From a virus: a DNA stretch of 30,801 nt. This document shows, piece by piece, positions 6,246 through 30,801 of the stretch. The notes under the pieces are model-generated. The model was not told the DNA's origin. It did not search any database and saw nothing but the letters and a program-made list of their open reading frames with translations. The translations under genes were made by a program, and so were the position numbers. The DNA is taken from the IMG/VR virus record IMGVR_UViG_3300027710_000861, positions 1 to 30,801 of that record; one strand, given 5' to 3'. Within the stretch, counting starts at the first letter, position 1. Each line of letters opens with the position of its first letter.

Positions 6246-6249
6246 AATT

Positions 6250-6271: not shown

Positions 6272-6273
6272 AC

Positions 6274-6302
6274 TTGCTCTTTTGATGAAATGAATGTATA
6301 AT
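6274..6302 (+). promoter_or_regulatory. Probable sigma-70 promoter for the HExxH/VWA gene
   Basis: A perfect TATAAT at 6297-6302 has a weak -35, TTGCTC (6274-6279), at the ideal 17-base spacing. It lies just after the terminator, and would start transcription near 6309, shortly before AGGAG at 6318-6322. Because the -35 is poor, an activator or a weaker promoter is likely. Confidence 0.65.
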
Positions 6303-6327
6303 AGTATTATCGCAACTAGGAGTTATC

Positions 6328-10919: not shown

Positions 10920-10929
10920 TTAGTATTCC

Positions 10930-11919
10930 TTATGGAACAATGTTAAGAAAAGTTGAAGTTGACCACAACCATGATGCTGTTGCAGTAGTATATGCATACC
11001 CATTTAAAGGTTCCCACCAGATTGATCCGAATGTGTCAGTTAGATGGAATTTTCTAACCGAAGTTGTTGTATTATAAACACATACCACCGATGCTGTAGA
11101 AGCTGGAAGATATGTAGATGTTGAAAACATTTTAGCAAGATCGGCAGCAATAGCACGATTAGCATCATCGTAGGCTACAAGATTAGTAGTAGTGTTAGTA
11201 GAAGTATAAGATCCATATGGGGTTATATTATAATATGCTGTTAGATCTGTATTAGGATGGTTTCTAACATTCCATCCATTTATCTTAACACTTCCAAATA
11301 CATTTAAATTTTTAAATATAGTAACACCTTCCTCGATAGGTTGTACAGATGAAAGTCCAAGTAGTATTGTAGAAGAGCTTGCCTCCATTACAAAAGAAGA
11401 AGTAGAAATTAAACCTATGTAACTTCCATAAGAATTAATTAAACTGGCTTTCTGAGCAAGTTTTGTATTATTATCTCTTATAGGAACCTGAGATGGTAAT
11501 ATTCCAAACGTGCCCAATAGTCCAGAAGCAGAAGGTCCTACTAAATTGTAACTATTACCATCCCATACTTTTAATTGACTGTTAACAGTATCATACCAGA
11601 AGTCGCCAGTGCTGGTTGTTATAGGAGCTGTTCCACTAACGTGCGATCCGTATGTTGGTTGAAAAGAGCTACCATCATACACTGTAAGTCTCTTAGTAGT
11701 TTTATTAAACCACAATTGACCAGTTTGCGGACTTCTAGGTTCTTCTGCTGCCGGCGATGCAAAACTGGTTAACAATCTAACCAGGTTAGTATTGTAATAT
11801 TCGCCGTAGTTATTAACGTTTTTACCTATTAAATCTAGGCTAGTAGAATAGCTATCAACATCGCCTACTGCAATAGTTGATAAAACTGTTCCGTCGTTGT
11901 TGTATATAGTATAGGCCAT
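10930..11919 (-). CDS. Tail-fibre-like structural protein, paralogue without a recognised tip
   Basis: The 329-residue product repeats the shared N-terminal module: TSLDLIGKNVNNYGEYYN, then LLTSFASP and GQLWFN, followed by DFWYDTVNSQLKVWDGNSY and VGPSASG. After this the sequence diverges from its neighbours. A short KINGWNVRNHPN segment is followed by a Thr/Ser-rich stretch and an aromatic end containing GSIWWEPLNGYAY. No known tip domain is recognised. It lies between the other two paralogues, 10 and 1 bases from them, so all three are very likely co-transcribed and assembled in the same virion appendage. Its function is inferred only from that relationship. Confidence 0.7.
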   Translation of the reverse strand: MAYTIYNNDGTVLSTIAVGDVDSYSTSLDLIGKNVNNYGEYYNTNLVRLLTSFASPAAEEPRSPQTGQLWFNKTTKRLTVYDGSSFQPTYGSHVSGTAPITTSTGDFWYDTVNSQLKVWDGNSYNLVGPSASGLLGTFGILPSQVPIRDNNTKLAQKASLINSYGSYIGLISTSSFVMEASSSTILLGLSSVQPIEEGVTIFKNLNVFGSVKINGWNVRNHPNTDLTAYYNITPYGSYTSTNTTTNLVAYDDANRAIAADLAKMFSTSTYLPASTASVVCVYNTTTSVRKFHLTDTFGSIWWEPLNGYAYTTATASWLWSTSTFLNIVP

Positions 11920-11920
11920 T

Positions 11921-13666
11921 TTATGTCTTTATATGATAATAAATTGGAGCTCCATTAGTTCCAGATACTGTAGCAGTTGTTAAATCAGGAATTCTAAATT
12001 TTCCAAAAGAAGCTGTACCATAGGTAGTTCCAATAAGTGCAAACAAACTAACATAAGTTGTTGCTGTATGTTCAGATCCGTTACAGTATAACCAACCTGT
12101 ATATGGTCCAGGATTTACATATCCGATGATCATACCTGTTGAAATTAAATTAGTATATACGTCCGATAAGAAATCACGTTTACTAATCTGCTCTAGCCCA
12201 GTAGTTGCACCCGATGCTGTGTTCAATACCATTAAGGTCTGCGTAGCAGTTGTCGAAGACGTAACAGATTGTGCAGAAATTAATGTAGTCGAAGCAGTAG
12301 TAACTAATGTTACATTGGCTGCTCCGTTAAATTGTACCGGAGTTTGGGTAATCATCTGCCCCGATATTTGGAAATTTCTTACAGTTTCTAAAGTAGTAGC
12401 AGTAGTAACACTACCATAAATCTTAACATAAGTGGTAGAGCTACCAATATTTTTTACATATACGCTTTCAAAAGGCTTGCTTGCAGATCCTAGATCTGTA
12501 GTTGAGTTAATTGGAACAACATCTCCAACAGTTATTGAAGATGCTGTTGATAATTCTGTTCTACCGTATACAGTTAAGTTTCCAACAACAGTTGCATTGC
12601 CAGCAACAGTAGTAGATCCTCCTAGATCAAGCACAGACGTTGACGAACTAGCAGCTGATATTGTTAAATTTTCTTTAAATATGCCGCTACCGTTAACAGT
12701 TAATGCAACACCACTGACTGTATTGGTATTGATAGCAACTGTGCCTAAGAAACTATCAAATTTAATATAAGATTTGTTGTTTATTCCAAGTTTTAGTATA
12801 GAACTATTATTGTCAAAATTAATAACAGCTCCAGTTGTTGTTGTGTAAATTTGTATTTCTCTACCGTTTTGTCTCTTAACAAATAATCCTTGAGGAGATT
12901 CTACAACCAATGATCCAGAATGCGTTTGTCGTTGAGAGGAAGGCACAGTATTTTTCATTACTTCGCTTGCCTGTATATAGATACCATTAGAAATTTCTAG
13001 TGATTTAGCTCTATCTGCAAGACCGTTAAACTTAGCAGCGACTCGAGTAGTAAGATTAATACCAGGATTTAAACTAGCAAAACCATCAATAACTGTTCTA
13101 GGAGTGAATGTATGATACGCAATAATTTCAATGACTTTACCGTTAACCCAATTTAGAATTACTGGATAAGTCCCGCCCGTATTACTTACTAAATTTACTG
13201 ATTCGCTGCCTGTTTTAGTTTCACCAGTTGAAACATTTGGACCTACCAGCGTCCATGTATTACCGTATCTGATTTTAAGTTGGGTATTTCCTGTGTCAAC
13301 CCACATATCTCCATCAATTAAATTTTGGCTATATTCTATACTAGGATCGTTTGCTTGTTGATAAATCCCATTTGCACTAGGCCAACGGGCACTGGTTGCG
13401 GCGCCATTATTAACACGTAAAACTTTACGAGTTGGATTACTAGTATCATACCATAATTGCCCTTCAATTGGATTTAACGGTGCGTTAGGGCTAGCAAAAT
13501 TTTCTAATAATTTTAAAAAATCTTGAGCAATAGTTTCACCGTAGGCAACATATCCAGGTCCTACGAGATCTAAACTAGTACTATAATTATTTTTAGTAGG
13601 TCCAGAAATAGTAATAGTATTAGTTTTACTAGGATCTGAAAAATTTAGTGTATATTGTGTCGCCAT
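11921..13666 (-). CDS. Tail-fibre-like structural protein with C-terminal tail collar domain
   Basis: This 581-residue protein starts with the shared module: TSLDLVGPGYVAYGE, LKLLENFASPNAPLNP and GQLWYDT (about residues 30-82), then DMWVDTGNTQLKIRYG and LVGPNVSTG. The long middle is Ser/Thr/Asn/Val-rich, consistent with a beta-helical or beta-rich fibre. The end, from about residue 520, reads GYVNPGPYTGWLYCNGSEH, with SLFALIGTTYG, KFRIPDL and a short tail. This is the phage tail collar domain pattern (GWLxCxG, FxxIGTTYG, FxxPDL) found at receptor-facing tips of short tail fibres. It is the longest of the three paralogues and the most likely receptor-binding one. GGAAAC precedes the ATG. Confidence 0.8.
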   Translation of the reverse strand: MATQYTLNFSDPSKTNTITISGPTKNNYSTSLDLVGPGYVAYGETIAQDFLKLLENFASPNAPLNPIEGQLWYDTSNPTRKVLRVNNGAATSARWPSANGIYQQANDPSIEYSQNLIDGDMWVDTGNTQLKIRYGNTWTLVGPNVSTGETKTGSESVNLVSNTGGTYPVILNWVNGKVIEIIAYHTFTPRTVIDGFASLNPGINLTTRVAAKFNGLADRAKSLEISNGIYIQASEVMKNTVPSSQRQTHSGSLVVESPQGLFVKRQNGREIQIYTTTTGAVINFDNNSSILKLGINNKSYIKFDSFLGTVAINTNTVSGVALTVNGSGIFKENLTISAASSSTSVLDLGGSTTVAGNATVVGNLTVYGRTELSTASSITVGDVVPINSTTDLGSASKPFESVYVKNIGSSTTYVKIYGSVTTATTLETVRNFQISGQMITQTPVQFNGAANVTLVTTASTTLISAQSVTSSTTATQTLMVLNTASGATTGLEQISKRDFLSDVYTNLISTGMIIGYVNPGPYTGWLYCNGSEHTATTYVSLFALIGTTYGTASFGKFRIPDLTTATVSGTNGAPIYYHIKT

Positions 13667-14366: not shown

Positions 14367-16049
14367 TTATCTTCCGTATCTGTAGATTTTAGGTCTAGGC
14401 CATGCCTGTCCTGCGCTGGGGCGAAGGCCTTGATTTACTTTAGGACCAACTTGCCCGTCAACTGGGCGTTCTTTATAAAAATATAAAAATCTATTGGCGG
14501 ATCCTTGAAGGTCAGTAAAATCAGCCGGGCCGCCTGTGCTTGCTGTAATTTGATTAGTCTTAGCATGTGTTTGTATATAGGCCCTTGCTTGAGTTTGATT
14601 TATCCTAGGCCAAGTTTCAGCTAAACAAGCAATTACGCCAGCTACCTGCGGGCTTGCCATTGAGGTTCCAGTGTATTTGGTTATATAGTAATCCGTATCT
14701 CTTAAATCATTAGAATAAACACCCAATGTCGAATTTACACTACTCATAATAAATCTGCCAGGAGCATAAGCATCTACCCTAGGTCCACAGTTACTTGAAG
14801 TTATTTTTGAATCATTAAATAGGGAACTTATTGCACCAACTGTTATAGCATTTTCTACAGATGTTATTGTTCCCCGCATATAATAATATGTTGTTGGACC
14901 AGAAATAAAATAGTTGTTATAGTCATCAGAAGTTGAATCAGACGGGTTTGCAATTTTAGCATACGCATTGCCGGCGGCACCAACAACAATAACTCCAGCA
15001 GCCATTAGGTCAATTAGATCTTGTTCAGTACTTGTATTTCTTCTGCTAGTAAAAGTAAATCCACCTGAGTTAAAAATTCCATATCCTAAAAGTTGAGATG
15101 ACGTAAACGGGCCATTAACACTAGTTCCTCTATATCTAACAGAGGTAATTGTAGTAATATCTACACTAGTGAACACTCCGTAACTATGATTTGTTATTGT
15201 AGGATTTTTAACTCCTGTAATAGGATTAACTTCTTTACGTTGATGCCATACTTTGATATAATCTGCAAGAAACGTTGAATAGCCTGGGAAAAAAGTTGCA
15301 TTAGGATTTGTAGAATAAGGATTTATATTATAGATATTTGCATCGTGGGCCCAACCTTGTGTATTTCCTGCAAGTATTCCAGCAACGTGGGCCCCGTGAT
15401 CATTATCAGATGTCCTAGCAGAATAACCATTACTGTCAGTAAAAGGATATGAAGGATCAACATACGGACCGTACTGATAGTATGATGTAGACGGATTGTC
15501 AAACCCAATTACAATAGTATCAAGCTCAAACCAGTCGTATTGATTTACTCGTGAACCGCCAGTTCCGTCAACATTAACTGCAAATTCAGGATGAGCTGGA
15601 TCCATGTGGCCATCTACAATTACTACATCAACATGTTTTCCGCTGGCGGTTACATTAATAGTACCTGATGCCCCAGGAACACCGTTTGATCCCCAGCTTG
15701 CTCGCTGAACTCCTTCAACTGATCTTAGTAGTCCCCAATTCTTAAAGTTAGAGGATACTGAATTAGATTTGTTCCAAAACGTACTAGATTGAATCCAGCT
15801 TGGTCGAATTTCAAGTCCTGCTTCTTCAAGTGATAATTCAACTGCCATGACTCTAGAATCTTTTCGAACTAACTCAGCTTCTTCATCTGTTAATCTATAA
15901 TGAGTGTTTCTGCTAACTGGTCTGCGAACAGCTACTGGTACTGCTCTGTCAGGAATGAATAGAGCGCCGCCAGGAGTCTCCATATCATCGTAAAAAGAAT
16001 CTAGATCCTCGTGCTTGTGTAAAGTTATAACATATTCGCGCTCTTGCAT
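14367..16049 (-). CDS. Subtilisin-like serine protease (peptidase S8)
   Basis: This 560-residue protein carries a complete S8 catalytic set: D146 in VVIVDGHMD, H218 in DNDHGAHVAGI, oxyanion-hole N361 in VVGAAGNAY, and nucleophile S463 in GTSMASPQVAG. Residues 1-80 look like an inhibitor-I9-type propeptide, with a strand-helix pattern and DSRVMAVELS at its end. The last 40 residues are a basic, Pro-rich tail. No signal peptide is present, so it probably acts inside the host or as part of the virion. It sits among structural genes, a placement I recall for subtilases in some cyanophages and other aquatic T4-like phages. It may process a structural protein; the target is unknown. GGAAAG precedes the ATG. 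Confidence 0.92.
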   Translation of the reverse strand: MQEREYVITLHKHEDLDSFYDDMETPGGALFIPDRAVPVAVRRPVSRNTHYRLTDEEAELVRKDSRVMAVELSLEEAGLEIRPSWIQSSTFWNKSNSVSSNFKNWGLLRSVEGVQRASWGSNGVPGASGTINVTASGKHVDVVIVDGHMDPAHPEFAVNVDGTGGSRVNQYDWFELDTIVIGFDNPSTSYYQYGPYVDPSYPFTDSNGYSARTSDNDHGAHVAGILAGNTQGWAHDANIYNINPYSTNPNATFFPGYSTFLADYIKVWHQRKEVNPITGVKNPTITNHSYGVFTSVDITTITSVRYRGTSVNGPFTSSQLLGYGIFNSGGFTFTSRRNTSTEQDLIDLMAAGVIVVGAAGNAYAKIANPSDSTSDDYNNYFISGPTTYYYMRGTITSVENAITVGAISSLFNDSKITSSNCGPRVDAYAPGRFIMSSVNSTLGVYSNDLRDTDYYITKYTGTSMASPQVAGVIACLAETWPRINQTQARAYIQTHAKTNQITASTGGPADFTDLQGSANRFLYFYKERPVDGQVGPKVNQGLRPSAGQAWPRPKIYRYGR

Positions 16050-16050
16050 T

Positions 16051-16893
16051 TTAGCTTTCCAATTGTAGTAATGTTAAACTAACATTTATAACTCTAGAAG
16101 ATACATCTTTATTAGTGACTGCTAGATATATTGTAGAAGTTGTTGAAACATCATTGTTAAATCCAAGAACACCAGGAGTAATTAATTGTGTCAGCGAGCC
16201 CGATGTAGTGATAACTTCAGCTAAAATTCCACTACCAGGAGTAGGGTCATTGCCTTCTGTTCGGCTAGCATCAGCAGTTCTACTAGCACCATCTGTGTAA
16301 ATTCTTACCCAGGCAGGATAGTTGGTTACTACTTTTGATAATAGATAAGATTTAAAACCTTCTACTTGACAATTTTCCGTAGCGTCTGCTAGCACTGATA
16401 GTGCTGTTGTTCCTACAACCGTAGTCCTTGTTGACAATCCAATACCTGCACCAACTGACGCTGGTTTCCAAACTGAACTAACTGAGTTCCATACCAAGGC
16501 TTGTCCATTTGTCGGGGGTGTTGTTACTGTATCAACATCAAGAAAAACATTAATACTTGTAGCAGTATATGCAGCTGGAATTCCAGACAATGAAGAATAA
16601 TTTCCTGTGGTAGAAACTTCTGATAATGTAAGCCACTTAGTATTATAATCAGCGGAGTCAATTTTTGCTAATACTTGATTAGCAACACCTCCAGTAATTA
16701 CTCCAGCACCTGTTGTCCCTGTAGAACCGTTAGTTCCAGCTTCTCCTCTAAACCCAGCTTCTAACAAATCTGTTGTTATTTGATTTAAAAAATTTAAATA
16801 GTTAATTCGTTTTGTAAGTCTATTATCAACAATTACAAAAGTTGTAGCATCTGTAACGTTTGTAATAGTTGGTAGCAGTGTAATATTTGGCAT
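16051..16893 (-). CDS. Fibre-like structural protein with a short collagen-like segment
   Basis: The 280-residue protein opens with a helical/beta region (residues 1-46), then five G-x-y triplets at residues 50-64 (GEAGTNGSTGTTGAG), a short collagen-like trimerisation segment typical of phage fibres. A Val/Thr/Ser-rich body follows, with NVFLDVDTVTTPPTNGQALVW and WKPASVGAG, a linker style common in phage fibre proteins. The C-terminal 110 residues contain GFKSYLLSKVVTNYPAWVRI and RTADASRTEGNDPTPGSG, a conserved end seen in marine phage structural proteins. AAGGA at - strand 16906-16902 lies 8 bases before the ATG. The stop is one base before the protease start. Confidence 0.75.
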   Translation of the reverse strand: MPNITLLPTITNVTDATTFVIVDNRLTKRINYLNFLNQITTDLLEAGFRGEAGTNGSTGTTGAGVITGGVANQVLAKIDSADYNTKWLTLSEVSTTGNYSSLSGIPAAYTATSINVFLDVDTVTTPPTNGQALVWNSVSSVWKPASVGAGIGLSTRTTVVGTTALSVLADATENCQVEGFKSYLLSKVVTNYPAWVRIYTDGASRTADASRTEGNDPTPGSGILAEVITTSGSLTQLITPGVLGFNNDVSTTSTIYLAVTNKDVSSRVINVSLTLLQLES

Positions 16894-16895
16894 TT

Positions 16896-19800
16896 TTAAT
16901 ATCCTTCTAGAGGTTCTCCGTTTTCGTCTGTTAAAGCATTGCTATTTTCAAGGAGCACTTTATCTCCTCCATAGAAATATATGTCAGGTAGCTCTGCGGT
17001 TCTTGAACGTAAGAAATTAGCTTGAGTAGAAGTACTTGTTAACAACGATGTTGCTTCTGTTCCTGTCCACAATGCGCCTTCTTTCTTAACTATAGTTATT
17101 CTTGTTCCAGTTGTAATTTCTTCAGCAATATTTAATGTAATTCTTGTTGGTTCAATGAAAGTCAACGGCCATGCTATATTAATTGAAGTTGCAAAGCCGA
17201 CACCCCAGCCGTTAAACAAAACATTATGTCCTGAATAAATGACTGTATATCTAGCGCCACTAGCATCTTGCATAATCCATCCAGGTTGTATCTGCATTGT
17301 AGCTGTAGTTTCAGGGAGCACCCAACCTGAACCTGTAGGGGGTGTGCCGCCAGTTACATCTGTAATAACTGGGACAGTCACTAGCGTATTCATGGTAAAT
17401 TCGGGAGGATAGACTATTGTGCTATTTACAGAATCATAGTAAGAAATAGATCTATCATGCACACTTAAAGATGTTTTTCTTAACGGACGGCCGCCATAAT
17501 AAACTTCAATCTGATCTACAGCGTTTGTAAGAGTTGAGAATGTAATTCCGTCTCCTGCATGAGTAGAAGAAGTCACTGAGAACGTAGATGTATTAGTTAC
17601 TTCACTGATAAGATACGTAGTAGTATTTGAACTAGGAATATGTTGTGTCAAACTATAATCAATGGTTGGAATACTTTGACGTATACTCTGGTCAATAACT
17701 GTGGTACCAATGTCAGAAAACTTTGCAGGTCCTGTGCCTAAAGTTGATCGGCGAAGTCCACTTAATATATTTCCATTTTTAGCAGTGTATTCAATGCGTT
17801 CACTGTCAATGTAAACAACGCCTGGTAAGTTTCTTCCAGGGTTAGGTTGTAATAAATGATCACCATCCTCTACGTAAATCTCATTGTCAGTATATTGCAA
17901 CGGTTGCGCTAATTTTGTAGAGAAATATTCTGACAATCGTCTAAACTGTTGTCTACCAAACATGTCTTTAAAGATCTTATATCCTAACACTTTACTTCCA
18001 TACGATGGGGGATTAATTACAACAACTACAATGTCATCGTTTTCTTCAATGTTAACAAATTCTGATAATTCAATAGTTCTCATATCTTCAAGAAGCATGT
18101 AATCAAATCCAGCAATTAATGGTTTGTTAGCTACCGTTACCCATACATAATTTTCATTAATTGCAGGGTATGTTAATATTAAAAGATCGTTGGCACTAAA
18201 TCGTTCAGTTCTCATCATCATATTATCATGATCAGTAAATGAAGTTACTTTAATAGTTGCAGATGTTACCGGAGCTGTTAACTGTAATGTATTACCAGTT
18301 ACCATATAGTCATAGTCAACTAATGATATAATTGCAATAGCATCGCCGTTAATAATTCCAGGTTTAACTAATGTAATCTCACGTGATAGTCCATTTACAG
18401 TAAAGTCATAACCAGGTCGTAGTTCAATTCCGTTAAGGTATACCTTAACATTATCTAATGTGTATGTACGAGGTAGATCAGAATTTTTAGGATCAATCGG
18501 ATAATTCATTTTACCATTTAGGATTTTATAATAACTTGCCCAAGGTGGTAACATTCTATATCTAGTAGAACCTGATGTTTTCTCAACTATAACTTGTTCG
18601 CTAACAGGTTCAATTCCTCCAGGAGCACTATCAAGAATTAACTCAGAAGTAGCAGTAGATCCAATACTAAAGAATTGTTCATGTACTCTATTAAATTTAG
18701 GATAAGGAGTATCAAAGAACCACACTTGTAAATTATATGTATTACTGACTAATCCGTTAACAGTAATCATTGCTCGATTATTAACAGAACTAGTCGGAGT
18801 TAGAACATATCCTGATACACTTATGTCATTAGGTGACACTGACGGAGATATTTCAAATTCATTTAACAATACATACACGCTCTGAACTTCGTCAAAAGGT
18901 AACAAGCTAGATACTGATATTGTTCCAGTGTTAGTTTCGCTAAGGATTTCAGCTGCTACATAATTACTGTCTACAATAACATCAGAGCCCGCTGTAACAA
19001 AAGAATATCCTACTAAGGTCGTTCCAGTTTGCGAATTAACAGAAATAGTATTGCCAAATATTGAATAAACTTCACGGTTGTTCGGAGTAAAAGATCCTTC
19101 ATTGGTAACTCTTTCAAATGGTCTTCCGTTAGCCTGTACTCTAAATCCTAATGGGGTATCGGGTAACCAAGATAACGTAGCTCTTGTTATTCCGTCAGCT
19201 CCTGCAACAAATGCTCCAGATACTACCATAGGGCTCGATGGAGGTTCATCAACTGTGTATACATTAATACCAATACTATCTCGAACATGCCCCGGTACGC
19301 ATTCTTCCGGAGCATAACTGTCAACTGAATTTAAAAAGTTGTTACCGTCAATGACAATATCTTCTGGTTTGTAACCTATAGACGTATCTAATAAAGTTCC
19401 TCCGTTTATTGCACTATCTAAACTATTGTAATTAGTGTTATAAGAATAGAATTCTAATTCAGTGGCTCCAAATAATCTAACGTTTAGATCTCCAGATATT
19501 GTAGTTGTTGAATTAGCATGCCTTAAAGAAACTGTAGCCCGATCTAACCCATCAATTGAATTAGAAATACTGTACCAAACTGTATCAGTACTAGTAGAAA
19601 GTACTTCTACAGGGTGTGTGCTCAATGATACTTCTGCTCGAATAACATCATCAAATGGTGCAAAAGTCTGAACTGTCGCAACATCAGTATTTGAAAAACT
19701 GCCAGTAACGCTGTCTAATAATTTATTAGATGCAGTCAATCTTCTAATGATGCTAGATAATCTAAAAGCTGCTCCTGATTGTAATGTGGTAGCAGTACTG

Positions 19801-22800
19801 CTTAATTCCAATTGTGAAAATGCTTCAACGTAATTACTTGTGCATTTTTCCACTCTAAGAGCTTGATTAAACCCAGGGTCTAAACTAGCAATAGCAATTC
19901 CTTGAGAAGTACTAGTTGTACCACTTAAAGTTACTGTCGGTATGGAGGTGTATCCCATACCTGTAATATCCATTACTATCTGTGTTACAGTAAACCCGTT
20001 TTGTATAGCATGGGCTGTTGCTTGTCTACCACTAGGAAGATTAGGAGGAGAAATTGTAACAGAAACTAATGCGGTAGTCGACGTCGATACAATGGGCGGC
20101 GTAGTTGATACGCCAATTCCAATTCCATAACCAAACAGACTGTTAACTCCATTAACTACTATTGAGTCACCTACATTAATTGCATTATGGAACGAATCTT
20201 TTGTTTCGATGATAATAGTTGATCCGGAAGAGGTGCCGGTAGAATATATTCGGTCTATGGAAGTATCTACTATGTCGAGTGTACTAATATATACTCTATT
20301 TCCTACAACTCGTTCCACAACTGTGCGTTCTTTAAAAATTTGAGTTGATGTATTCAACGGTACAATAGTTTGTCCTGGAAAAATTCCATCACTTGATACC
20401 ACCATAAAAGAACTTTGGTGTCGATCTAAATTGCTAACAATCTTAGTTAATGCGTAATCACTAACTGTATCTCCCCAAGGAGCAGTATCGTATTGTGTTC
20501 CAGTACTATCCCAATTAGGAGATTGATCAAGCATTAGTCCTTGTATGGATATTCCAGGATACTCTGCACCTTCCATTAGTAGCGGTAATTCTTTACCTGG
20601 CATTATATCTGTAGGATTATATAAACTGTTAATTCTATCTACAGCATTATACAAATCAATATGCTTGGTATAGGTTACTTTAAAAATTTGACCATATTGA
20701 GGTACTCTATTTAAGAATACAAATTTAGCATAGTGTCTAATATACCCCGGCAATTCACCAGAACGTTCTGTATTCAAGAAATACTTGTAACGATGATCAA
20801 CCATTGTTTCACCTTCCCAAGAATACTTAGGGAAAGTCTGTGGTACATCTATACCAGTTTGAGAAACTTTAACTTGATAATACTCTACTGTATAATCAGA
20901 CCCAAATACTAGCTTACCATCTAATAGAGGAGTAATTGATTTTTTGTCGGGACTTGCTAACCAAGTTAATGTAAATTTGTCTGAAACTCCGTCGCAAACA
21001 AATTCATCAGTTACAGATAGATTTTCAATATCGCCAACTGTAGAAGTCCTGTCAAACTTCATCCCAATGATATTCTTTCTTATTGTATCATTGGCCATAA
21101 TAACTGATACCCTAGCAGTATCGTCGCCAATGTTACTATCAGAAATAGTAACGATTGGAGGAATTACATACCCGGATCCAGGATTAGTTACTAATACTTT
21201 AAATACTTCACCGTTTCTAACATAGGCTTCAGCAGTGGCTCCTGAACCAGTATCGCCGGTAGCAGTAGTGATAGTTACTGTGGGTCGTTGAGTATATCCA
21301 GAACCTGCATATCCCACTTCAATTGAACTAACATAAAACTTATAATTGTCGGCCCAATCTTTCCAAGGGCGTACTCCTAACAGCGGGTCTCCTAACCCAA
21401 CAACTGCAAGTGAATCAGTAATTGTATTATAATACGCTGGCAAGTCAAAGTCTGTTATATCTAATGGCAATCCCTCAGACGTATTTTCTTGATAGCTGTA
21501 TTTAGAAGTATAACTTCTTATCTTTGTATGATAAGGTTTAACTTCATTAATGTAATTTTCAAAGTATTCTTCGTTGTTTAATTTGTAAACAGGACGCTGG
21601 TTCAGGGTTCCAATGTTGTTGAACACGTTAACAAAAGAAGTTTTGAAAGCCCAGTCTAATAATTTTTGCTCAGTTAGTGCATATTTTACTGCGGCAAAGA
21701 AAAATAAGTTCCAATTTACTTTTAATGAATTGATAAAAATATTATTCTTTAATGCTAACAGAATGTAATATAATTCCTGATCCGGAATTTGATCATACAA
21801 CGTTTCTTCAATGGTAGCATTATCATAGGCGTATTTTCCTATACTATAATCCCACAGCGAATCTAATAATTGTATAGTTCCTTGTTCTCTATAAACAATA
21901 TCATATGACGGAATATAATTTCCATTGCCTGATACTTTCTGTAAGATAGCATATTTTCCGTCGCCTATATTTTTAACTTTTACATAATTGCCGTCAGCAA
22001 TAGTTGTTAATGAACCTATATCAAACAAATTAGAAATTGTATACTGTATAGCTTTGTAAGAATCATAAGTATTGCTTACCCAGTCAACTGTTTTCCAATA
22101 TAACGGTGTGTTGTATTTTTGTGTTTGAACTTTAACCCATGTTCTTAGAGAGTAATCAAAGCTATGTTTTGTCCATCTATTTCCATAATCAGAATTTACC
22201 TGAACAATAATAGTGTGAGCACGGACTGATACTTTAGCTAATACTGCTCCAGTCTCATCATTTAAATATCCGTCGCCTGCATTGATAATTGTTGCAGAAA
22301 CTATCTTACCCTCAGAATCTAATTCTGTTAAAATTTCAGCCCCTGTTCCGATACCGGAAGTAGGAATAATTGTAACTTTTGGAGAGACAGTATAGCCAAA
22401 ACCTGGATTGGTAATAATAACACTTCGAATTTTTCCATTTTCTGCAAAACATTGCAGTTCAGCTCTAACAAAATTAACTGTAAAGACTTCATCAAGTGCT
22501 GCCGAATCTTCAACTATTGCATCGTATTCATAGGAGAATAATGCCGGTTTTTCTTCTATCTTGTTAAGATTTTCAAAAGAATAATTTCCTACAATCCTAT
22601 TTTCAAGTAATACAGAATTTGCAAAAGAGATTAAGTTACGTAATGCAGATAATCTGTCTTTAAATAATGTTTGCTGAGGACGGATTCCAATACCATATCT
22701 ATTTCTATGTGTGAGATTCTTACCAGGTACTTCATTACCAAAACTGTCGTGTCCTAGTAAACTGTCAAACAGCTTCTTCTCTAACAGTGTATTAGGCACA

Positions 22801-25800
22801 TTAGTATCATCACCTTCATTTAACAACAACCATTCTGTATGTTTAGGAGTTGTAAAATTATAATCAATAGTAATATTTGCATTAATTCTGTTTCCAATTA
22901 ACATAGGTTGAACGTTAGCAAATGCTACAGCATTAGATGATAATATTTCAACAAATTTTAATCCATTGGCAACAGGATCTGCAATATAACTAGCAACCTG
23001 GAAGCTACTTAATCTGCGATTTTTAACATTAGGCAAAGTAACTTTATTTTTAACCCAGTAATAATAAACATTCTCAAATGAGCCGGTTACATTATTAAAT
23101 AGTTGTTTAACTGAAATAACACTGTTATCTGGATATTTTGGTTGTCCGCTGATACTGTTAACCAGTCCCTTAGTAGTATCAGCCAAGGCGGCCCATTCAC
23201 TAGGTAATAGATCAGATTTGACCCATTCGTAGACATCTATACTTGCGCCTGGGAATAGTCTTCCCCAATTATTCTTTCTATATACTTCATCACCTTGTTC
23301 GTACCAAGTATACTTGGCAGTACTTAGGTCCCACCATAATTCACCTACGTGTTCATCTAGCCAGTTAGTGTCAGTGTTAACAATTATGCCTGCAAGACCT
23401 ATACTATATGTTGCAGGATCAAATGCTGCTTTGTATTTTAATTCTTGTTCGGCTATCCCTGCAATTTTACCTTTAACTGGATCAATAACATCAAGATATT
23501 CAACTATCTCTTCTTTCACTGTATCGATAAGTGCAACACGACCAATTGTTGATAGATCAACACTATCTTCTTGTTGTCTTAAAACTTTCCATCCTTGACT
23601 TGATGAATCAATTTTACTAAACATAAACAATCTAGAAGCATCAGTTGCAGGAGCTGGCAATAGATTACTTTGATTTGTCGGAGCTCCAACAAACACTTCG
23701 TTGTTAGTTACAACAACTGCACTTCCGTATCTGCTACCAGCCGTTATGGTATAGATAGCAGGTTCAAGTGTGAAAGTTGTATACGCAGTTCCCCAAACTT
23801 CAGTTGATGCATTTTTTGCATATATTGTTAGATTGCGAATACCTGCAGGCAACCTACTAGTATCAATATAAAAATAGTGATCTCGGCTTGGAGAATTTTG
23901 AATTGTTCCGCCGTAAGGGCCATAAGTTAAATCGTCAACTTGCCCAATGATGTAATTAATATTAACATCAGTGTGGAAATTAACAATAATTGTGTTTCCA
24001 ATATTTGTTACAGTTTCGGATAATGTAATGTTAGATATCACAGGAGCACTAGGTTCATTGACGCTAACATTAAGTGGCAAAATAGCTACAGTGTTTGCTT
24101 CTTCAATAATCTTAACATCATTTAATTCATCTGCCTGTATAAATTTATTACCTATCTTATTGTATAAGTAGACTGTTCCAGCATCTGGTAGAGATTCACT
24201 AAACTTAGTAGAATCATTGTCAAAGGTTGTTTTTCCAGAATTATTATTTTCGTCAAATATTTGTTCACTGCTTCTAGTCTTACCTAAGGCACCAATACCA
24301 ATTGTTTGTTCATCTTTACTAATAGAGATAGAATAACCAAATTTTAAATCATTAGTAGGCAATGGGTTGTCAATTACTTGATAACCAACTGTACTACTAG
24401 AATAGTGTGTGAAACTTATAGAAGTTACTGGACCAGTGGTTGCTGCACTTAAGGAGATTATAACAATAGTACCGTCAAAATTTGATAGAATGTCAACTGC
24501 ACGGGTTCCGGCAGGTATTCCTTCGCCTGTAACAAATGTACCTAATACATAATACAATTCCTCAACATCACCATCAGTAGTAAGTTGATCGCCAGTTGAA
24601 GTAGTAATTGTTAATGTGCTAGTTTTCTTAGGATATATTACAACTTTACCATACGGCTCGTTTGTATTCTTAACTTCGGGAGCAGAGATTAACAAATAAT
24701 TTCCACTGGTAGTAATTGCAATATCGTGCCCAAATCGGCCGCCTTCTCCAAACGGAGAAGCAATTGTTTGGAAATATTCTAAATTATTATTAAACAATTG
24801 AACAATACCAGTGTCGTTCGTTTGTCCCGGAGCACTGACAGCAAATCCAATTGAACAACTAGCAATTTTATATCCCCACTCTGCACCGTCAGTTAATGTT
24901 ACTGACGACGTAGTGTATAACGGAACACCCCATCTTGGTGTTACAACAAATTCAGGTGTTATATTATAACTGTAAACTGCACCAAAGTTAGTAGCTGTCA
25001 GTGAACTTGTAGTAAGGAAACTAGGTCCAGGGGCCCCAACTAATAAAGTAGTAGAAGCAGTGTTCGATACCTGGTTAATAGATACTGAATGACCAAATCT
25101 AGAATAATGTGTTGATAGTCTGTGTGATATTACAGTTTCAGTAAATGCAGGGAAATCTTCAAGGCGGCTATCAATTTTAACAAGCCCTTCGTTGATATTG
25201 CCCTTATTGAGATTTAAGAAAGGAAGAAGATAAGAAGTGCCTGTACTCATGACATCAGAAGCTTCAGGAGCACCAGTAATGTATAATTTCTTTCCTATGT
25301 CATATTGTAAAGAGTAACCAAATTGTGTAGAACTTGTAGAACTACAATATTTGTTGCCTGGTTCAGTGTTTAAAATATAATCATACGTACGAACCCATGC
25401 GCCATTTACTTTATTAAAGACTTTAACGCGGCCCCAGCTGTATGTTCCGTCAATTCTCCAATCTGGAGCAGACACTAACATTACAGGACTATCATCAGAT
25501 GCAAAAATAGATGAGCCAAATTTCTGACCAGGTGGTGTGTTTACTGTGTCAGAAACTGATGCAGAGTAGTTTTTAACTTTTTCGTAAACTTGCCACTTAC
25601 CGCCGGTGCCTTGATCAATCCAAACTTTATCACCTGCATTTAATTTTAATAAGTCAGTAACCTGCGACAGATCTTCAAGATTATCATATCTTGCTTCTTC
25701 AAATCTATACAACGAACCGTAATTCAATAATTCTTCGTTTTCAATACTAGATAACGCAGTAGAAACTGTAAATTGATTTGTGTTTACAATAGAATTAACA

Positions 25801-28800
25801 ACGTACACTCCGTTAACTTGAGCGTTAAATCTTACTACAGAAATAACATCGCCAGGTTGAAGGCCGTGATGACTGTCTGTTACAAAAGTAATTTCACTGG
25901 CAGGAGCACTAACAAATACTCCACTAATTTCAGCTAACTGTTTAGTATATCTGTAAACGGTCCAATCTCCGTTTTCTTGGAAACCTAACCAAACAGTATC
26001 ACCTTCTTGTATTGCAGAATTATTAGCAATATCTAACAGACTATTTTTGTTGTAGGCAGTAGAAGTAACATCATCTGATCTTACATAGCCTGCTGTGGTT
26101 AATTTTAAATTATTATCCACCCAGTTACTAGCATACGAACTGATAGTATTTGTAGGAGAATAATCAACCGGAGTTAATAACAATGACGATGACGTTATAT
26201 AATTAATTAATGGATTAGCATTAGTTGGAATCAAATCAACAAATTTAACTAGATAAGGATTCTCTAGGTATGTGCCTTCTTCTAACGGAAATTCAATCTC
26301 ATTTAATGTTTCAAAACTTCCGTACTGACCTATTCTAAAGGCCCATTCTTCTTTAAATGTCAGGTCACCTTTATTAGCAAATTCTCCAGCTTTGGATAAT
26401 TTGTCAACAGCATTTTTAGTGCCTTTGTCCTTAATCATGCCTTGATAAAATTTGTACTGGCTAATTGGATTTGTGAATATATTATTTAGATATGTTCTAG
26501 GTGTATATCCAGTAAGGTGCTGTGCCAGCTGTTGCTGACTATAATCAAAATTATCAATGTCAAGACTGTAAAAATCTTCAAACTGGTTAATTTTATAATC
26601 AAAATTGGGCAGCAGTTGAGGAATTGGTTTACCAGATAACTGCACCCACTCTGTAAAATTAAATGTAACGCTAGCAACTACTGTTACCAATGACTCATAG
26701 TATCTACCGTTGTAACGTACAACCATTCCTGGTAGATATTTTTTGTAAGGTTGCCAATCAGAAACTTCAACATTATCATATACAAATCCTGGACTGAATA
26801 AATCACCGTTCCAGTTCTTTGTTCTAAATCCAGAAAGTTTAATTCTTCGTTGTTTGTATCCAGTTTCTATGTCATAGATAGTGTCATTAAATACTGTAAA
26901 GTTATTAAACACCATGCCGTGTTCTTTTTGTACAGAATTTAACGTGGCAAAGAATAAACCTTCGTTAGCATCTTTGGTTTTAATTGTACATATAGTATCT
27001 TCACGAGCCATAGTAAATCTATCTGCAGGATAAGGTTTTCCGTCTGCTTTTAATAAACTATATTCGTATTTGGTTCCAACAATGTTGTCCACTACAGAAT
27101 TAGGGAAATTGTATTTGATGTAATTTGCAAAAGGACTTAAAGTAATTAAGTTACCATCGGCCCAATTTTGAGTTGTCCAATACAAGAATTCTTTGCCTGT
27201 GAATTTCCAATTTAGCATTTCATTTAGGTCTGCATTAAACTCATCAAAGATAAATCCTTGAGTCTCGAGATATGCACCATAACCTAAAATAACATCGTAA
27301 ACTTCTTGAACAGTAGCAAATTCTGATCCATAAGGAATCTGTGTTATCGCAGTTTCAAATCTAGCAGGGGATTGAACTGTAGCGCCACCTTTAACTGGTA
27401 GGTCAGGAAGACCTTGGAATAATGTAGGATCAAAAGTAGAACCCGCATTGTGACCTATTTTAACTCTGTAAAATTTATTACTATATCTTACTAACTGCCC
27501 TTGTTTATAATAACGACCAGTTGACTGTTCTGCTGATGTTATATCGATAGAACTCAGTCCGTTGTTTCCGTTGTTAACTATATTAGACCATTCTGAAAAT
27601 TCTTCAGATACTCCGCCTACTTTTACAACTCCTGAAGAATAAGAAGCAATTGGTTGCAGTATTTCAAAGTAAGGATTCTTTATATCGTAGCCCTTGACTA
27701 TAAAGTTACCGTTAGAGCGTTGAACAATAATTCCAGAAATTCTAGCCGTCTTAATAGGATTGCTTACATTTAAAATTAAAGAATAATCTTCAGCAGGCAA
27801 AACAACTCCCGGACTTGTCGATGTTGGATCGATGGAGTCAATAATAATTTGTAATTTTTCTTTACTAACAAAACCACCAACCTTGTGGAACAAATTAACA
27901 TTAAGATACTCAAGGTCCTGACGTAACTTTGTAATATAGTTTTGATCTTTCTGTCTACCTTTTTCAATAACATAGGTACCAAAGCCTGCTATTTGATTAT
28001 CATCTTCTCCCTCAATTATTAACTTTCTAGGGTCTAGATACAAATCATCTTCTTTATAAGTTAGTTGTCCAACACTATTAATAGATGCCCTACTAACATC
28101 AAATAATCCAGAACAAAAAGCGCAAGGATCTAATAGAGCGGCTGCGGCAATTAATGCAAAATGACAATGACTGCTTCGTCTCCACGCAAGTTCGGCAGGA
28201 CTAAGATCACCAAATTTCCATTTTGATTTTTTATCTTGGTATGAATTTGGTGTAACTAAAAATGAATTAGGTGCTTTCAAATTGCCCAATGCATCAACTG
28301 GGATAATAGATAATAATTCAGGTCTTGCATATTCAGTAAGGTATCTATCTTCACCTCGTAGATATCCATTTCTTAAATCAGTCCAAAGTTTTGTATTAGA
28401 CGAAGTGTATGGGGCAGACCCGTATTCTGCTTTCCACCAAGAAGGCTCTTGAGTTATTCCTAACATTCTCCAAGGAATAACGTTAGGACGAGGAGTATCA
28501 TAAAACTGTATGAAGAGATTTTTCCAAGATCCAGAAACAGGAGAATTGTTTACAACATCAAAGCTACCTGTGTAATTCCAAGTGCGTGAATTTACTTCAT
28601 CAAAAGTAGTATTAGTAGCTATATCAACTCCGTAAGTTCCAGCCCAACGAGAAAAGTCATTAATTAATATATTGTTTACATCCTCTGAGGTATAATTTTT
28701 TGTTCTAAAGGCGCCCGGATCAAGAGAAAGAATATCAAAAATGTCTCTGTTATATTGAACTTTAATATTATTAAAAATTCTTAATTCAAACTCAAGAATA

Positions 28801-30801
28801 ATTGCATCTCGATAATCACCGTAGGCATTTATAATACTGCCGTCGTGTCCCTGTATTGATTGCACACTACCAACAGCTATTGTTGTATCGTTGAATATTA
28901 GTGGATGATACGCTGGATATAACCCTAATTTTGTGGGGGTAGGAGGAATATAACAACCTAATGTATTTGTATAACAGTTAATTGTAACCACATCACCGAC
29001 TACTATAGGAACTAATAAAGTCACAGAACCGTCAATGTAATTAAAAGTATAATCAGTGTCATGTGTTAATTGAACGTCATTTAGATATAAAATAACTGAT
29101 TGAAAACTTAATCTTGTTAGATCAAATTCAAATCCAATAGGATACTCAATATTAAAAACGTCAGTAACAGTAAATGTTCTAACTGTTTTATTCTGTCCAT
29201 AACCTATCATATCAGATCGTTGATATAAAGATTTAAGATCTTTTGCGGTATTAAGATCTGTTAAAATTAAATCAACTGCATCGGCTGGAGATAATTGACT
29301 ATCAACATTGACCATCGATCTTAAAAAATTCATCTTAAATTGATCGTAATGATCGCCTGCCTGTCTAATAGCATCAACTATATTATGTTCTTTCTTTCCA
29401 AAGAAAATCTGTGCAAAAGAAATTGGATTGGCATTAACTACCAATCTAGAACCATACTTGGCATAATCAGCCAGATCTCTTAGATTAGTTCCAGTATACG
29501 CAGAAATTTTACCAACCATTGTAGATACATGATCTCCTAATTCGCTGAGAGTAAGACTCAATGCTGATCCATTTAACGGGTTGTTTGTTAAGCCAATCGG
29601 GGTTTCATAATAACCGTTTCCGTTTGGAGTTTGATCTGTTTCTATTTTTAATACTACAACGTCATTAACTGCCAAGGAGGTAGATGTTAATAAACTAACA
29701 TTACTAGAAGTAGCAGTTGTTGTTGCAGAAATTTTTATACCATTTACATACGCACTTACTGTTAAATTAGTATCAATAGGAGAGTCTAAACAGGTAACAG
29801 TAATAGTATTAGTAGTCTCTGTTATTGTTTGTAATTCTATAACAGGAATTTTATAATCAACAGATTCTGCCCAGACGTTAACTAGGCTATCGTTTAATTT
29901 TAAATAAGTAACTGCTGACGAAATAGTTCTACTTACATTATTGTTAATCAATGTAATAGTATCTACCATAAAATAATTTTTAAACAGATAACTGCCTGTT
30001 CCAATATTATTTTGATATTTTAAAGAAAATCCTAATATGGGGTCAACTACTCCGGTCCCAATTTCATACCCAAAAATTTGATTGCCTGTAAAATTATTAG
30101 ATTCAGTAATATTAGTATAACTAACACCGTCGCTGGTAAACAAATCAAATAACGGTGGTTGATTTAATGTAGTGTGTTGTTGTGCATATACCCATGAGCC
30201 AGTAGATGCATTAAAGTACCAACTTGTTCCATAATATTCTGTACCAAAGTTTACACTTACCGAATCCATGTCATTAGGATTTGCATCTTCGGCGCCAATG
30301 AGGCGAAGCACAGGAACATCCCCTGATAGATCAAAATCAACTTGGAATATTTTACCTCTAACATCTAAATCTGTGTCAGCATTAAAAATAACTCTATGCC
30401 CTTGTTGCAATAAAGTTTCGTCAACATAGTATCCGTAAGTACCGTCAACTGTGCTGAATGCATCGGTAGTGGAATTGTCAATTAAATCAATATTTCGAAT
30501 TCCAGTTTGTCCAAAGTTGTATAATTTTAAATTTGGTCTAAATTCAATAATAGGTCGTTGAGCTCTTGTATCTAAAGGATAGATTACTGGAATATTATTG
30601 ATTTCAGAAGTAGATTTGATAACATCTTTGTGGAACCATCTGTTATATCGTGTCCACGGATTTAAGTCATCACTGGCTCTATTAATAGTAATGTAATCAG
30701 GAGTTAACGGTAATTTTTTATCGCCATCAAACGGATATTCATCAAATTGTGTTTCATCAAAAGTTTCATTATAAACTATAGCAGTTCGATCATACGAATT
30801 C
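16896..30801 (-). CDS. Giant virion structural protein (5' end outside window)
   Basis: One frame is open on the - strand from the right window edge to a TAA at 16896-16898, giving at least 4634 residues. A TTG at 30410 is not the start: 130 further codons upstream are open and coding-like (with FDEYPFDGD, DYITINRAS and LNPWTRYNRWFHKD), and none is ATG. The protein is beta-rich and Ser/Thr/Asn-rich throughout, with no catalytic motif I recognise. Parts: a RIEYTAKNG and LRRSTLGTG segment near the C-terminus (about 17760), GxGY repeats (19941-22410), seven FG-GAP-type repeats (23640-25545) and a CAFCSG motif near 28120. Proteins of this kind are hypothetical structural genes of marine T4-like phages. 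A tail or appendage role is inferred from position. Confidence 0.85.
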   Translation of the reverse strand, partial: NSYDRTAIVYNETFDETQFDEYPFDGDKKLPLTPDYITINRASDDLNPWTRYNRWFHKDVIKSTSEINNIPVIYPLDTRAQRPIIEFRPNLKLYNFGQTGIRNIDLIDNSTTDAFSTVDGTYGYYVDETLLQQGHRVIFNADTDLDVRGKIFQVDFDLSGDVPVLRLIGAEDANPNDMDSVSVNFGTEYYGTSWYFNASTGSWVYAQQHTTLNQPPLFDLFTSDGVSYTNITESNNFTGNQIFGYEIGTGVVDPILGFSLKYQNNIGTGSYLFKNYFMVDTITLINNNVSRTISSAVTYLKLNDSLVNVWAESVDYKIPVIELQTITETTNTITVTCLDSPIDTNLTVSAYVNGIKISATTTATSSNVSLLTSTSLAVNDVVVLKIETDQTPNGNGYYETPIGLTNNPLNGSALSLTLSELGDHVSTMVGKISAYTGTNLRDLADYAKYGSRLVVNANPISFAQIFFGKKEHNIVDAIRQAGDHYDQFKMNFLRSMVNVDSQLSPADAVDLILTDLNTAKDLKSLYQRSDMIGYGQNKTVRTFTVTDVFNIEYPIGFEFDLTRLSFQSVILYLNDVQLTHDTDYTFNYIDGSVTLLVPIVVGDVVTINCYTNTLGCYIPPTPTKLGLYPAYHPLIFNDTTIAVGSVQSIQGHDGSIINAYGDYRDAIILEFELRIFNNIKVQYNRDIFDILSLDPGAFRTKNYTSEDVNNILINDFSRWAGTYGVDIATNTTFDEVNSRTWNYTGSFDVVNNSPVSGSWKNLFIQFYDTPRPNVIPWRMLGITQEPSWWKAEYGSAPYTSSNTKLWTDLRNGYLRGEDRYLTEYARPELLSIIPVDALGNLKAPNSFLVTPNSYQDKKSKWKFGDLSPAELAWRRSSHCHFALIAAAALLDPCAFCSGLFDVSRASINSVGQLTYKEDDLYLDPRKLIIEGEDDNQIAGFGTYVIEKGRQKDQNYITKLRQDLEYLNVNLFHKVGGFVSKEKLQIIIDSIDPTSTSPGVVLPAEDYSLILNVSNPIKTARISGIIVQRSNGNFIVKGYDIKNPYFEILQPIASYSSGVVKVGGVSEEFSEWSNIVNNGNNGLSSIDITSAEQSTGRYYKQGQLVRYSNKFYRVKIGHNAGSTFDPTLFQGLPDLPVKGGATVQSPARFETAITQIPYGSEFATVQEVYDVILGYGAYLETQGFIFDEFNADLNEMLNWKFTGKEFLYWTTQNWADGNLITLSPFANYIKYNFPNSVVDNIVGTKYEYSLLKADGKPYPADRFTMAREDTICTIKTKDANEGLFFATLNSVQKEHGMVFNNFTVFNDTIYDIETGYKQRRIKLSGFRTKNWNGDLFSPGFVYDNVEVSDWQPYKKYLPGMVVRYNGRYYESLVTVVASVTFNFTEWVQLSGKPIPQLLPNFDYKINQFEDFYSLDIDNFDYSQQQLAQHLTGYTPRTYLNNIFTNPISQYKFYQGMIKDKGTKNAVDKLSKAGEFANKGDLTFKEEWAFRIGQYGSFETLNEIEFPLEEGTYLENPYLVKFVDLIPTNANPLINYITSSSLLLTPVDYSPTNTISSYASNWVDNNLKLTTAGYVRSDDVTSTAYNKNSLLDIANNSAIQEGDTVWLGFQENGDWTVYRYTKQLAEISGVFVSAPASEITFVTDSHHGLQPGDVISVVRFNAQVNGVYVVNSIVNTNQFTVSTALSSIENEELLNYGSLYRFEEARYDNLEDLSQVTDLLKLNAGDKVWIDQGTGGKWQVYEKVKNYSASVSDTVNTPPGQKFGSSIFASDDSPVMLVSAPDWRIDGTYSWGRVKVFNKVNGAWVRTYDYILNTEPGNKYCSSTSSTQFGYSLQYDIGKKLYITGAPEASDVMSTGTSYLLPFLNLNKGNINEGLVKIDSRLEDFPAFTETVISHRLSTHYSRFGHSVSINQVSNTASTTLLVGAPGPSFLTTSSLTATNFGAVYSYNITPEFVVTPRWGVPLYTTSSVTLTDGAEWGYKIASCSIGFAVSAPGQTNDTGIVQLFNNNLEYFQTIASPFGEGGRFGHDIAITTSGNYLLISAPEVKNTNEPYGKVVIYPKKTSTLTITTSTGDQLTTDGDVEELYYVLGTFVTGEGIPAGTRAVDILSNFDGTIVIISLSAATTGPVTSISFTHYSSSTVGYQVIDNPLPTNDLKFGYSISISKDEQTIGIGALGKTRSSEQIFDENNNSGKTTFDNDSTKFSESLPDAGTVYLYNKIGNKFIQADELNDVKIIEEANTVAILPLNVSVNEPSAPVISNITLSETVTNIGNTIIVNFHTDVNINYIIGQVDDLTYGPYGGTIQNSPSRDHYFYIDTSRLPAGIRNLTIYAKNASTEVWGTAYTTFTLEPAIYTITAGSRYGSAVVVTNNEVFVGAPTNQSNLLPAPATDASRLFMFSKIDSSSQGWKVLRQQEDSVDLSTIGRVALIDTVKEEIVEYLDVIDPVKGKIAGIAEQELKYKAAFDPATYSIGLAGIIVNTDTNWLDEHVGELWWDLSTAKYTWYEQGDEVYRKNNWGRLFPGASIDVYEWVKSDLLPSEWAALADTTKGLVNSISGQPKYPDNSVISVKQLFNNVTGSFENVYYYWVKNKVTLPNVKNRRLSSFQVASYIADPVANGLKFVEILSSNAVAFANVQPMLIGNRINANITIDYNFTTPKHTEWLLLNEGDDTNVPNTLLEKKLFDSLLGHDSFGNEVPGKNLTHRNRYGIGIRPQQTLFKDRLSALRNLISFANSVLLENRIVGNYSFENLNKIEEKPALFSYEYDAIVEDSAALDEVFTVNFVRAELQCFAENGKIRSVIITNPGFGYTVSPKVTIIPTSGIGTGAEILTELDSEGKIVSATIINAGDGYLNDETGAVLAKVSVRAHTIIVQVNSDYGNRWTKHSFDYSLRTWVKVQTQKYNTPLYWKTVDWVSNTYDSYKAIQYTISNLFDIGSLTTIADGNYVKVKNIGDGKYAILQKVSGNGNYIPSYDIVYREQGTIQLLDSLWDYSIGKYAYDNATIEETLYDQIPDQELYYILLALKNNIFINSLKVNWNLFFFAAVKYALTEQKLLDWAFKTSFVNVFNNIGTLNQRPVYKLNNEEYFENYINEVKPYHTKIRSYTSKYSYQENTSEGLPLDITDFDLPAYYNTITDSLAVVGLGDPLLGVRPWKDWADNYKFYVSSIEVGYAGSGYTQRPTVTITTATGDTGSGATAEAYVRNGEVFKVLVTNPGSGYVIPPIVTISDSNIGDDTARVSVIMANDTIRKNIIGMKFDRTSTVGDIENLSVTDEFVCDGVSDKFTLTWLASPDKKSITPLLDGKLVFGSDYTVEYYQVKVSQTGIDVPQTFPKYSWEGETMVDHRYKYFLNTERSGELPGYIRHYAKFVFLNRVPQYGQIFKVTYTKHIDLYNAVDRINSLYNPTDIMPGKELPLLMEGAEYPGISIQGLMLDQSPNWDSTGTQYDTAPWGDTVSDYALTKIVSNLDRHQSSFMVVSSDGIFPGQTIVPLNTSTQIFKERTVVERVVGNRVYISTLDIVDTSIDRIYSTGTSSGSTIIIETKDSFHNAINVGDSIVVNGVNSLFGYGIGIGVSTTPPIVSTSTTALVSVTISPPNLPSGRQATAHAIQNGFTVTQIVMDITGMGYTSIPTVTLSGTTSTSQGIAIASLDPGFNQALRVEKCTSNYVEAFSQLELSSTATTLQSGAAFRLSSIIRRLTASNKLLDSVTGSFSNTDVATVQTFAPFDDVIRAEVSLSTHPVEVLSTSTDTVWYSISNSIDGLDRATVSLRHANSTTTISGDLNVRLFGATELEFYSYNTNYNSLDSAINGGTLLDTSIGYKPEDIVIDGNNFLNSVDSYAPEECVPGHVRDSIGINVYTVDEPPSSPMVVSGAFVAGADGITRATLSWLPDTPLGFRVQANGRPFERVTNEGSFTPNNREVYSIFGNTISVNSQTGTTLVGYSFVTAGSDVIVDSNYVAAEILSETNTGTISVSSLLPFDEVQSVYVLLNEFEISPSVSPNDISVSGYVLTPTSSVNNRAMITVNGLVSNTYNLQVWFFDTPYPKFNRVHEQFFSIGSTATSELILDSAPGGIEPVSEQVIVEKTSGSTRYRMLPPWASYYKILNGKMNYPIDPKNSDLPRTYTLDNVKVYLNGIELRPGYDFTVNGLSREITLVKPGIINGDAIAIISLVDYDYMVTGNTLQLTAPVTSATIKVTSFTDHDNMMMRTERFSANDLLILTYPAINENYVWVTVANKPLIAGFDYMLLEDMRTIELSEFVNIEENDDIVVVVINPPSYGSKVLGYKIFKDMFGRQQFRRLSEYFSTKLAQPLQYTDNEIYVEDGDHLLQPNPGRNLPGVVYIDSERIEYTAKNGNILSGLRRSTLGTGPAKFSDIGTTVIDQSIRQSIPTIDYSLTQHIPSSNTTTYLISEVTNTSTFSVTSSTHAGDGITFSTLTNAVDQIEVYYGGRPLRKTSLSVHDRSISYYDSVNSTIVYPPEFTMNTLVTVPVITDVTGGTPPTGSGWVLPETTATMQIQPGWIMQDASGARYTVIYSGHNVLFNGWGVGFATSINIAWPLTFIEPTRITLNIAEEITTGTRITIVKKEGALWTGTEATSLLTSTSTQANFLRSRTAELPDIYFYGGDKVLLENSNALTDENGEPLEGY
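19941..22410 (-). repeat. Five GxGY repeats in the giant protein
   Basis: The motif G-x-G-Y followed by a proline and a VTI-like strand occurs five times on the - strand: NPGFGYTVSPKVTI (near 22400), NAGDGYLNDE (near 22280), GSGYTQRPTVTI (near 21310), GSGYVIPPIVTI (near 21170) and GMGYTSIPTVTL (near 19960). The spacing is irregular. They look like a recurring short beta module found in phage structural proteins. Confidence 0.65.
23640..25545 (-). repeat. Seven FG-GAP-type repeats (predicted beta-propeller) in the giant protein
   Basis: Seven segments repeat the pattern FG/YG/WG followed by a hydrophobic strand, then a GAP-like turn and a strand ending in a fibrous motif. The first aromatic residues are encoded at - strand bases 25520, 25322, 25097, 24878, 24734, 24341 and 23729. 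The turns read SAPD, GAPE, GAPG, SAPG, SAPE, GALG and GAPT. Spacing is 66, 75, 73, 48, 131 and 204 residues, so two blades carry long insertions. The last gap includes an Ig-like stretch starting APVISNITLSETV. The pattern matches FG-GAP repeats of bacterial type rather than the calcium-binding integrin form. Confidence 0.7.

Follow-up and report, generated by a model that had tools for sequence, protein, structure and literature searches.

A giant structural gene in the gene 7 slot of T4-like jumbo phages and its probable role in the baseplate wedge

The locus and its giant open frame

The window analysed here is an entire IMG/VR record of 30,801 bases, so the sequence cannot be extended within its own assembly. 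On its minus strand, positions 30800-16896 form one open frame of 4634 codons, with the stop at 16896-16898 and the 5' end open at the contig edge. The next gene on the same strand encodes a 280-aa protein with a short collagen-like stretch (16051..16893), likely a tail appendage, and is followed by a gene for a 560-aa subtilase (14367..16049, minus strand) with a clear Pfam match to Peptidase_S8. Three tandem fibre-like genes of 424, 329, and 581 aa occupy 9645-13666 on the minus strand. They have in common an N-terminal module of about 90-130 residues, likely a common docking domain, in which a 'GQLWY/GDFWYD..LKVW' motif is repeated; the 581-aa protein ends in a phage tail collar domain. A thymidylate synthase gene (8767-9648) converges on the fibre gene at 9645, and the two ends overlap by 4 bases. 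Further away, a MoxR-type AAA ATPase gene followed by one for a DUF2201 metallopeptidase/VWA protein (5163-7587) makes up a phage-borne pair of MoxR-VWA type. At 455-2257, a radical SAM gene (minus strand) adjoins and diverges from a gene for a QueE-like 7-carboxy-7-deazaguanine synthase (plus strand), a pair that hints at deazaguanine DNA modification.

At the base composition of the window, the computed chance of 4634 stop-free codons is approximately 10^-142. Compared with L008, a contig carrying a 77%-identical relative, there are 1061 base differences, 636 of them at third codon positions, and 821 changed codons, 488 of them synonymous. As most changes are of these kinds, the giant frame is truly coding, and purifying selection acts on it. 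More than 20 other, independent contigs of IMG/VR also have this single frame, open over 3431-5270 codons, which excludes the assembly error that the original prediction had named as refuting it.

The same prediction had noted 130 codons without a stop upstream of the TTG at 30410 and proposed that the gene runs past the window edge. Those codons are indeed stop-free and are conserved in relatives. Moreover, in contigs L007-L010, whose giant proteins are 73-77% identical to that of the window over the first 667 aa, the ATG start lies 198-199 codons before the first codon of the window. In L008 it lies 199 codons before, 1 base past the gp6 stop. The TTG at 30410 is therefore read as an internal codon and not a start; the gene of the window is predicted to have lost its first ~199 codons to the contig end, and the full protein would have approximately 4830 aa.

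Family and gene order

The giant protein matched phrog_10938 in 4 stretches with E=1.6e-267, and tblastn and blastp aligned it with virion proteins of jumbo phages in colinear blocks across much of its length. By tblastn, 59-60 phage records were matched, and among the matches listed all were jumbo phages or fragments of them. The matched phages were RaK2, K64-1, 121Q, PBECO4, CBB, GAP32, and Erwinia and Xanthomonas relatives, together with PA5oct and its relatives, Atu_ph07, Phosso, SCTP-2, and Vibrio 2.275; XacN1 (3313 aa) and RAS14 (3138 aa) also belong, as colinear but more distant members. For the first 667 residues of the window protein, IMG/VR yielded at least 495 relatives. On these matches, the giant gene is assigned to a known kind, the PHROG 10938 virion protein of RaK2-, PA5oct-, Atu_ph07-, SCTP-2-, and Phosso-type jumbo phages. 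The colinear cores are 22-34% identical to those of RaK2 gp465/ORF070, PA5oct gp355, CBB_236, Atu_ph07 gp180, Phosso 294, and SCTP-2 140, proteins of 3326-4555 aa. Members span 3138-4555 aa in cultured jumbo phages, shorter than the ~4830 aa predicted for the window copy, and reach 5270 aa in metagenomes. The cultured members with complete genomes have 284-490 kb and two related contigs have 331 and 353 kb, while the window is only a 30.8-kb fragment.

Virion mass spectrometry, which the original prediction had proposed as a check, has detected two relatives. CBB_236 (3340 aa, encoded beside gp6) was found in virions with 21 unique peptides and 7.7% coverage (PMC5259590), and the annotation of PA5oct gp355 is marked 'ESI-MS/MS'. 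Together with the single open frame and the coding signal, the presence of relatives in virions confirms a very long structural gene of at least 4634 residues.

The original prediction had also suggested that the protein may need processing by the neighbouring protease. Of 29 contigs of relatives, 12 gave a match to the subtilase, a strong one in 10 cases, and the strong homologues lie close to the giant gene. No match was obtained in the other 17, including the 353-kb contig of L025, in which other genes directly follow the giant gene; since some of these contigs are fragments, absence there is weak evidence. The neighbourhoods of the giant gene in RaK2, CBB, and PA5oct contain no annotated subtilase. 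Processing is thus not a general need of the family, though it may occur in this phage. We hold it very unlikely that the giant is a polyprotein from which the subtilase releases several virion proteins: its size and an S8 protease two genes downstream, with a strong homologue near the giant in 10 related contigs, are suggestive of such cutting, whereas the many loci lacking the protease, even as a partial test, speak against it. In RaK2 (L005 26577-28886) and CBB (L088 21627-23924), the giant gene is directly followed by an opposite-strand gene for a ClpA-like ATP-dependent protease.

In L008, the closest relative, and in L025, genes for a gp5-type hub, gp25, and gp6 are followed by the giant gene, which begins 1-11 bases past gp6. 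The order gp25-gp6-giant also occurs in PA5oct, Phosso, RaK2, CBB, and XacN1; for Atu_ph07 and RAS14, it was read from size, order, and partial annotation. The order of gp6 and the giant equals that of T4 genes 6 and 7. Because the window ends before gp6, its own gene order is taken from relatives only. A gene for gp8 was recognised neither downstream in the window nor in the jumbo-phage annotations. In Salicola phage SCTP-2 (L004 7003-16293), the gene before the giant itself encodes 3096 aa and is possibly an enlarged or fused gp6.

Giant genes also occupy the gp7 slot of cyanophages: S-PM2 (3048 aa), S-CAM7 (4314), P-HM2 (4454), P-SSM2 (5195), and P-SSM7 (7124). In P-HM2 and P-SSM2, the slot gene is annotated as gp7, and in P-SSM2 also as the baseplate wedge initiator. 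The 7124-aa slot gene of P-SSM7 (L121 6053-27001) is annotated only as a virion structural protein and has several GxGYTxxP-type repeats. The slot genes of other T4-like phages are small, with 503 aa in the Stenotrophomonas phage Yut3, 631 in OspM_OC (annotated gp7), 1032 in T4, and 1164 in Vibrio F86. In XM1, the gp7 counterpart (gp17) has 242 aa; it joins two copies of the gp6 counterpart in a core bundle, and the tail spikes are held by its extra loops (PMC10457771). The claim that the giant exceeds any T4 structural protein is thus true in size, but T4 is the wrong yardstick, given the 3048-7124 aa of the cyanophage slot genes and the 3138-4555 aa of those in cultured jumbo phages.

Domain layout of the giant protein

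All coordinates below are on the minus strand, and residues are counted in the window frame. Residues 1-1740 (25581..30800) form a first conserved core, common to the jumbo-phage relatives. AlphaFold2 modelled the first 1200 aa of the L008 protein as one confident unit (pLDDT 85, pTM 0.80), and in a viral structure library the whole-length matches of this model were family members and uncharacterised phage proteins. Within the core, residues ~535-612 (28965..29198, mapped from L008 734-811) are modelled as a β-sandwich resembling phage tail-fibre-docking domains, namely those of TSP4, the T7-type fibre N-terminus, and the baseplate, with Z 7-8.9 over 61-70 residues. A carbohydrate-binding module, CBM_5_12, was matched by Pfam at 30 bits for the whole protein (cut-off 26.2), and the better of the two stretches reported covers residues 1349-1376 (26673..26756). 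A block with a KGT motif follows at residues 1426-1534 (26199..26525).

An insertion spans residues ~1741-2404, and within it residues 1761-2376 (23673..25520) carry exactly seven FG-GAP-like repeats, compared with 0.09 expected in shuffles. Pfam FG-GAP_2 scored 32.9 bits (cut-off 23). From the seven repeats, a seven-bladed β-propeller is predicted, and in the gap between the sixth and seventh repeats (2175-2357) another domain may be inserted. In closer contigs, the regular FG-GAP copies number three to six. The insertion is absent from the 3425-aa protein of L025, and it sets the window copy apart from the cultured phrog_10938 members, in which the FG-GAP motif was not found.

The second conserved core, residues 2404-3450 (20451..23591), is likewise common to the relatives and was defined by alignment, and its model is less confident (pLDDT 74, pTM 0.41). 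It contains three GxGYTxxPxVTI repeats, the first at residues 2800-2811 (22368..22403) and the other two, which begin at 3166 and 3208, within residues 3166-3219 (21144..21305). Residues 3256-3394 (20619..21035) are modelled as a second β-sandwich of the fibre-docking type, with Z 8.2-9.6 to several phage tail or baseplate proteins and Z 7.3 to chain B of the T4 baseplate structure 5iv5. The two sandwiches thus resemble (Z up to 9.6) those of CBA120 TSP4, the T5 portal-complex protein 9ilp_a, and T4-type baseplates, but in the giant they would be embedded within a baseplate protein and not placed at a fibre N-terminus. A variable, partly Ser/Thr-rich region follows at residues 3451-4270 (17991..20450), and the C-terminal residues 4271-4634 (16899..17990) are conserved and common to most contigs.

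Consistent with the original prediction, the protein has recurring modules, namely the FG-GAP-like repeats, the GxGYTxxPxVTI repeats, and the repeated β-sandwich modules. Likewise, no enzyme domain was recognised, the Pfam matches being only CBM_5_12, FG-GAP_2, and weak β domains. The proposal that so large a protein must form a long fibre or line the tail fared less well, and we consider it very unlikely. Fibre-docking-type domains, a Ser/Thr-rich variable region, and fibre-like genes downstream would suit a fibre. However, the gene's place behind gp25 and gp6, as seen in those relatives that were examined, indicates the baseplate wedge, and the large core is modelled as a mixed α/β fold rather than a fibrous repeat; slot and fold together do not fit a fibre or a tail lining. 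In addition, RaK2 makes its long tail fibres from gp526-534, whose genes form a cluster of their own (PMC10253068).

Relation to gp7 and proposed role

The T4 sequences used here come from record NC_000866. When the whole giant was compared profile to profile with T4 gp5, 6, 7, 8, 9, 10, 11, 12, 53, and wac, no match was obtained; the whole giant did not match the T4 gp7 family profile, nor T4 gp7 over any long stretch. The KGT block was the best of 60 tiled blocks against the gp7 core profile (pattern FYxxKGxxxSfkfLF) and matched in register, with its motif at residue 1459 and P=5e-4, and it is among the blocks conserved as far as the most distant relatives, XacN1 and RAS14. After correction for the 60 blocks, P is approximately 0.03, and against the T4 profile alone it is 0.25. 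In a control that used the gp7 motif from the N-terminus instead, P=7e-4 was reached by a block that is unrelated and poorly populated; as this chance-level value is similar to that of the KGT block, the match is counted as suggestive only. An N-terminal 'LPEYL..D' lay in the right register with the gp7 N-terminal helix motif but gave P=0.13 in that control, and was left unused. By position the giant corresponds to gp7; by sequence the KGT block is a candidate for the gp7 trifurcation motif.

A PDB sequence search with the giant protein returned no credible match, and with core profiles only a tailspike was matched (E=0.0017), in the GYT-repeat region. A match to phrog_460 ('head closure Hc2') was rejected as a sign of a head role, since it is confined to the same repeats. 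Foldseek found no PDB match at E<=0.001 for either model, and T4 gp7 is absent from the Foldseek and VIA-align lists for both, an absence that is no evidence against homology. No structure was found for any member of the family.

The cyanophage giants provide a precedent. They share with the window protein the slot after gp6, a similar giant size, and GxGYTxxPxVTI repeats (P-SSM2, P-HM2, P-SSM7), but have no significant sequence match to it outside the repeats, and they differ in a clear gp7 motif near the N-terminus (residue 210 in P-SSM2). Around its KG motif, the N-terminus of the P-SSM2 type matches the profile of the T4 gp7 family with P=9e-7, and tblastn from P-SSM7 also reaches gp7 of T4-like phages. 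With T4 gp7 and XM1 gp17, the giant shares the gp6-gp7 gene order and possibly the KG motif, but these proteins are approximately five to twenty times smaller, and no significant sequence homology to them was detected.

The absence of significant sequence homology is a point for another reading, in which a giant protein of the baseplate periphery, separate from gp7 and not related to it, took the gene position of gp7 and replaces gp7 and gp8-gp11. Conserved cores of more than 2500 aa, which far exceed gp7, and a first 1200 aa modelled as one fold whose whole-length matches are family members and uncharacterised phage proteins would also suit it. Against it stand the gene position, which is that of T4 gene 7 and of cyanophage giants with supported gp7 homology, and the KGT block, which lines up with the gp7 motif. 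On balance we find such a replacement unlikely.

We consider it probable that the giant is the gp7-slot baseplate wedge protein of a T4-like jumbo myophage, and the best reading is a gp7-type wedge protein made larger by insertions. Family membership, the slot, the cyanophage precedent, the fibre-docking domains, the presence of relatives in virions, and the KGT block argue for it; it is weakened by the missing long gp7 match, the weak KGT match, and a gene order known from relatives only. Giant genes in this slot were already known, under the name gp7 in cyanophages, as was the family in jumbo phages, which has a PHROG and is supported by mass spectrometry. In our literature collection, which is incomplete, no paper tied the jumbo-phage giant to gp7 or described the propeller.

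The data show the single long gene, its family, the gene order in relatives, the presence of relatives in virions, and the domains; we infer the wedge role of the giant itself and, by analogy with T4 and XM1, its copy number, fibre docking, and signalling. As with T4 gp7, six copies would probably be present, one per wedge, each pairing with the enlarged gp6 and gp25 around the hub. The two conserved cores would form the wedge scaffold. The carbohydrate-binding modules, the FG-GAP propeller, the GYT repeats, and the fibre-docking β-sandwiches would lie in the outer baseplate, where they may hold tail fibres or contact the cell surface. When a receptor is bound, the signal would be relayed by the wedge to gp6/gp25 and the sheath.

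In this wedge reading, the outsized 'unknown structural protein' of these jumbo phages gains a testable place, the baseplate wedge. From 242 aa in XM1 or 503 aa in Yut3 to 7124 aa in P-SSM7, the slot gene has a span of sizes that few other structural genes of contractile phages may equal. The extra domains of the giant are candidates for host contact. A bolder form, in which the integrin-like FG-GAP propeller and the carbohydrate-binding modules are receptor binders built into the wedge and the roles of T4 gp7 to gp11 have all passed to the giant, is unlikely; if true, the wedge itself, and not only separate fibres, would touch the host in this lineage.
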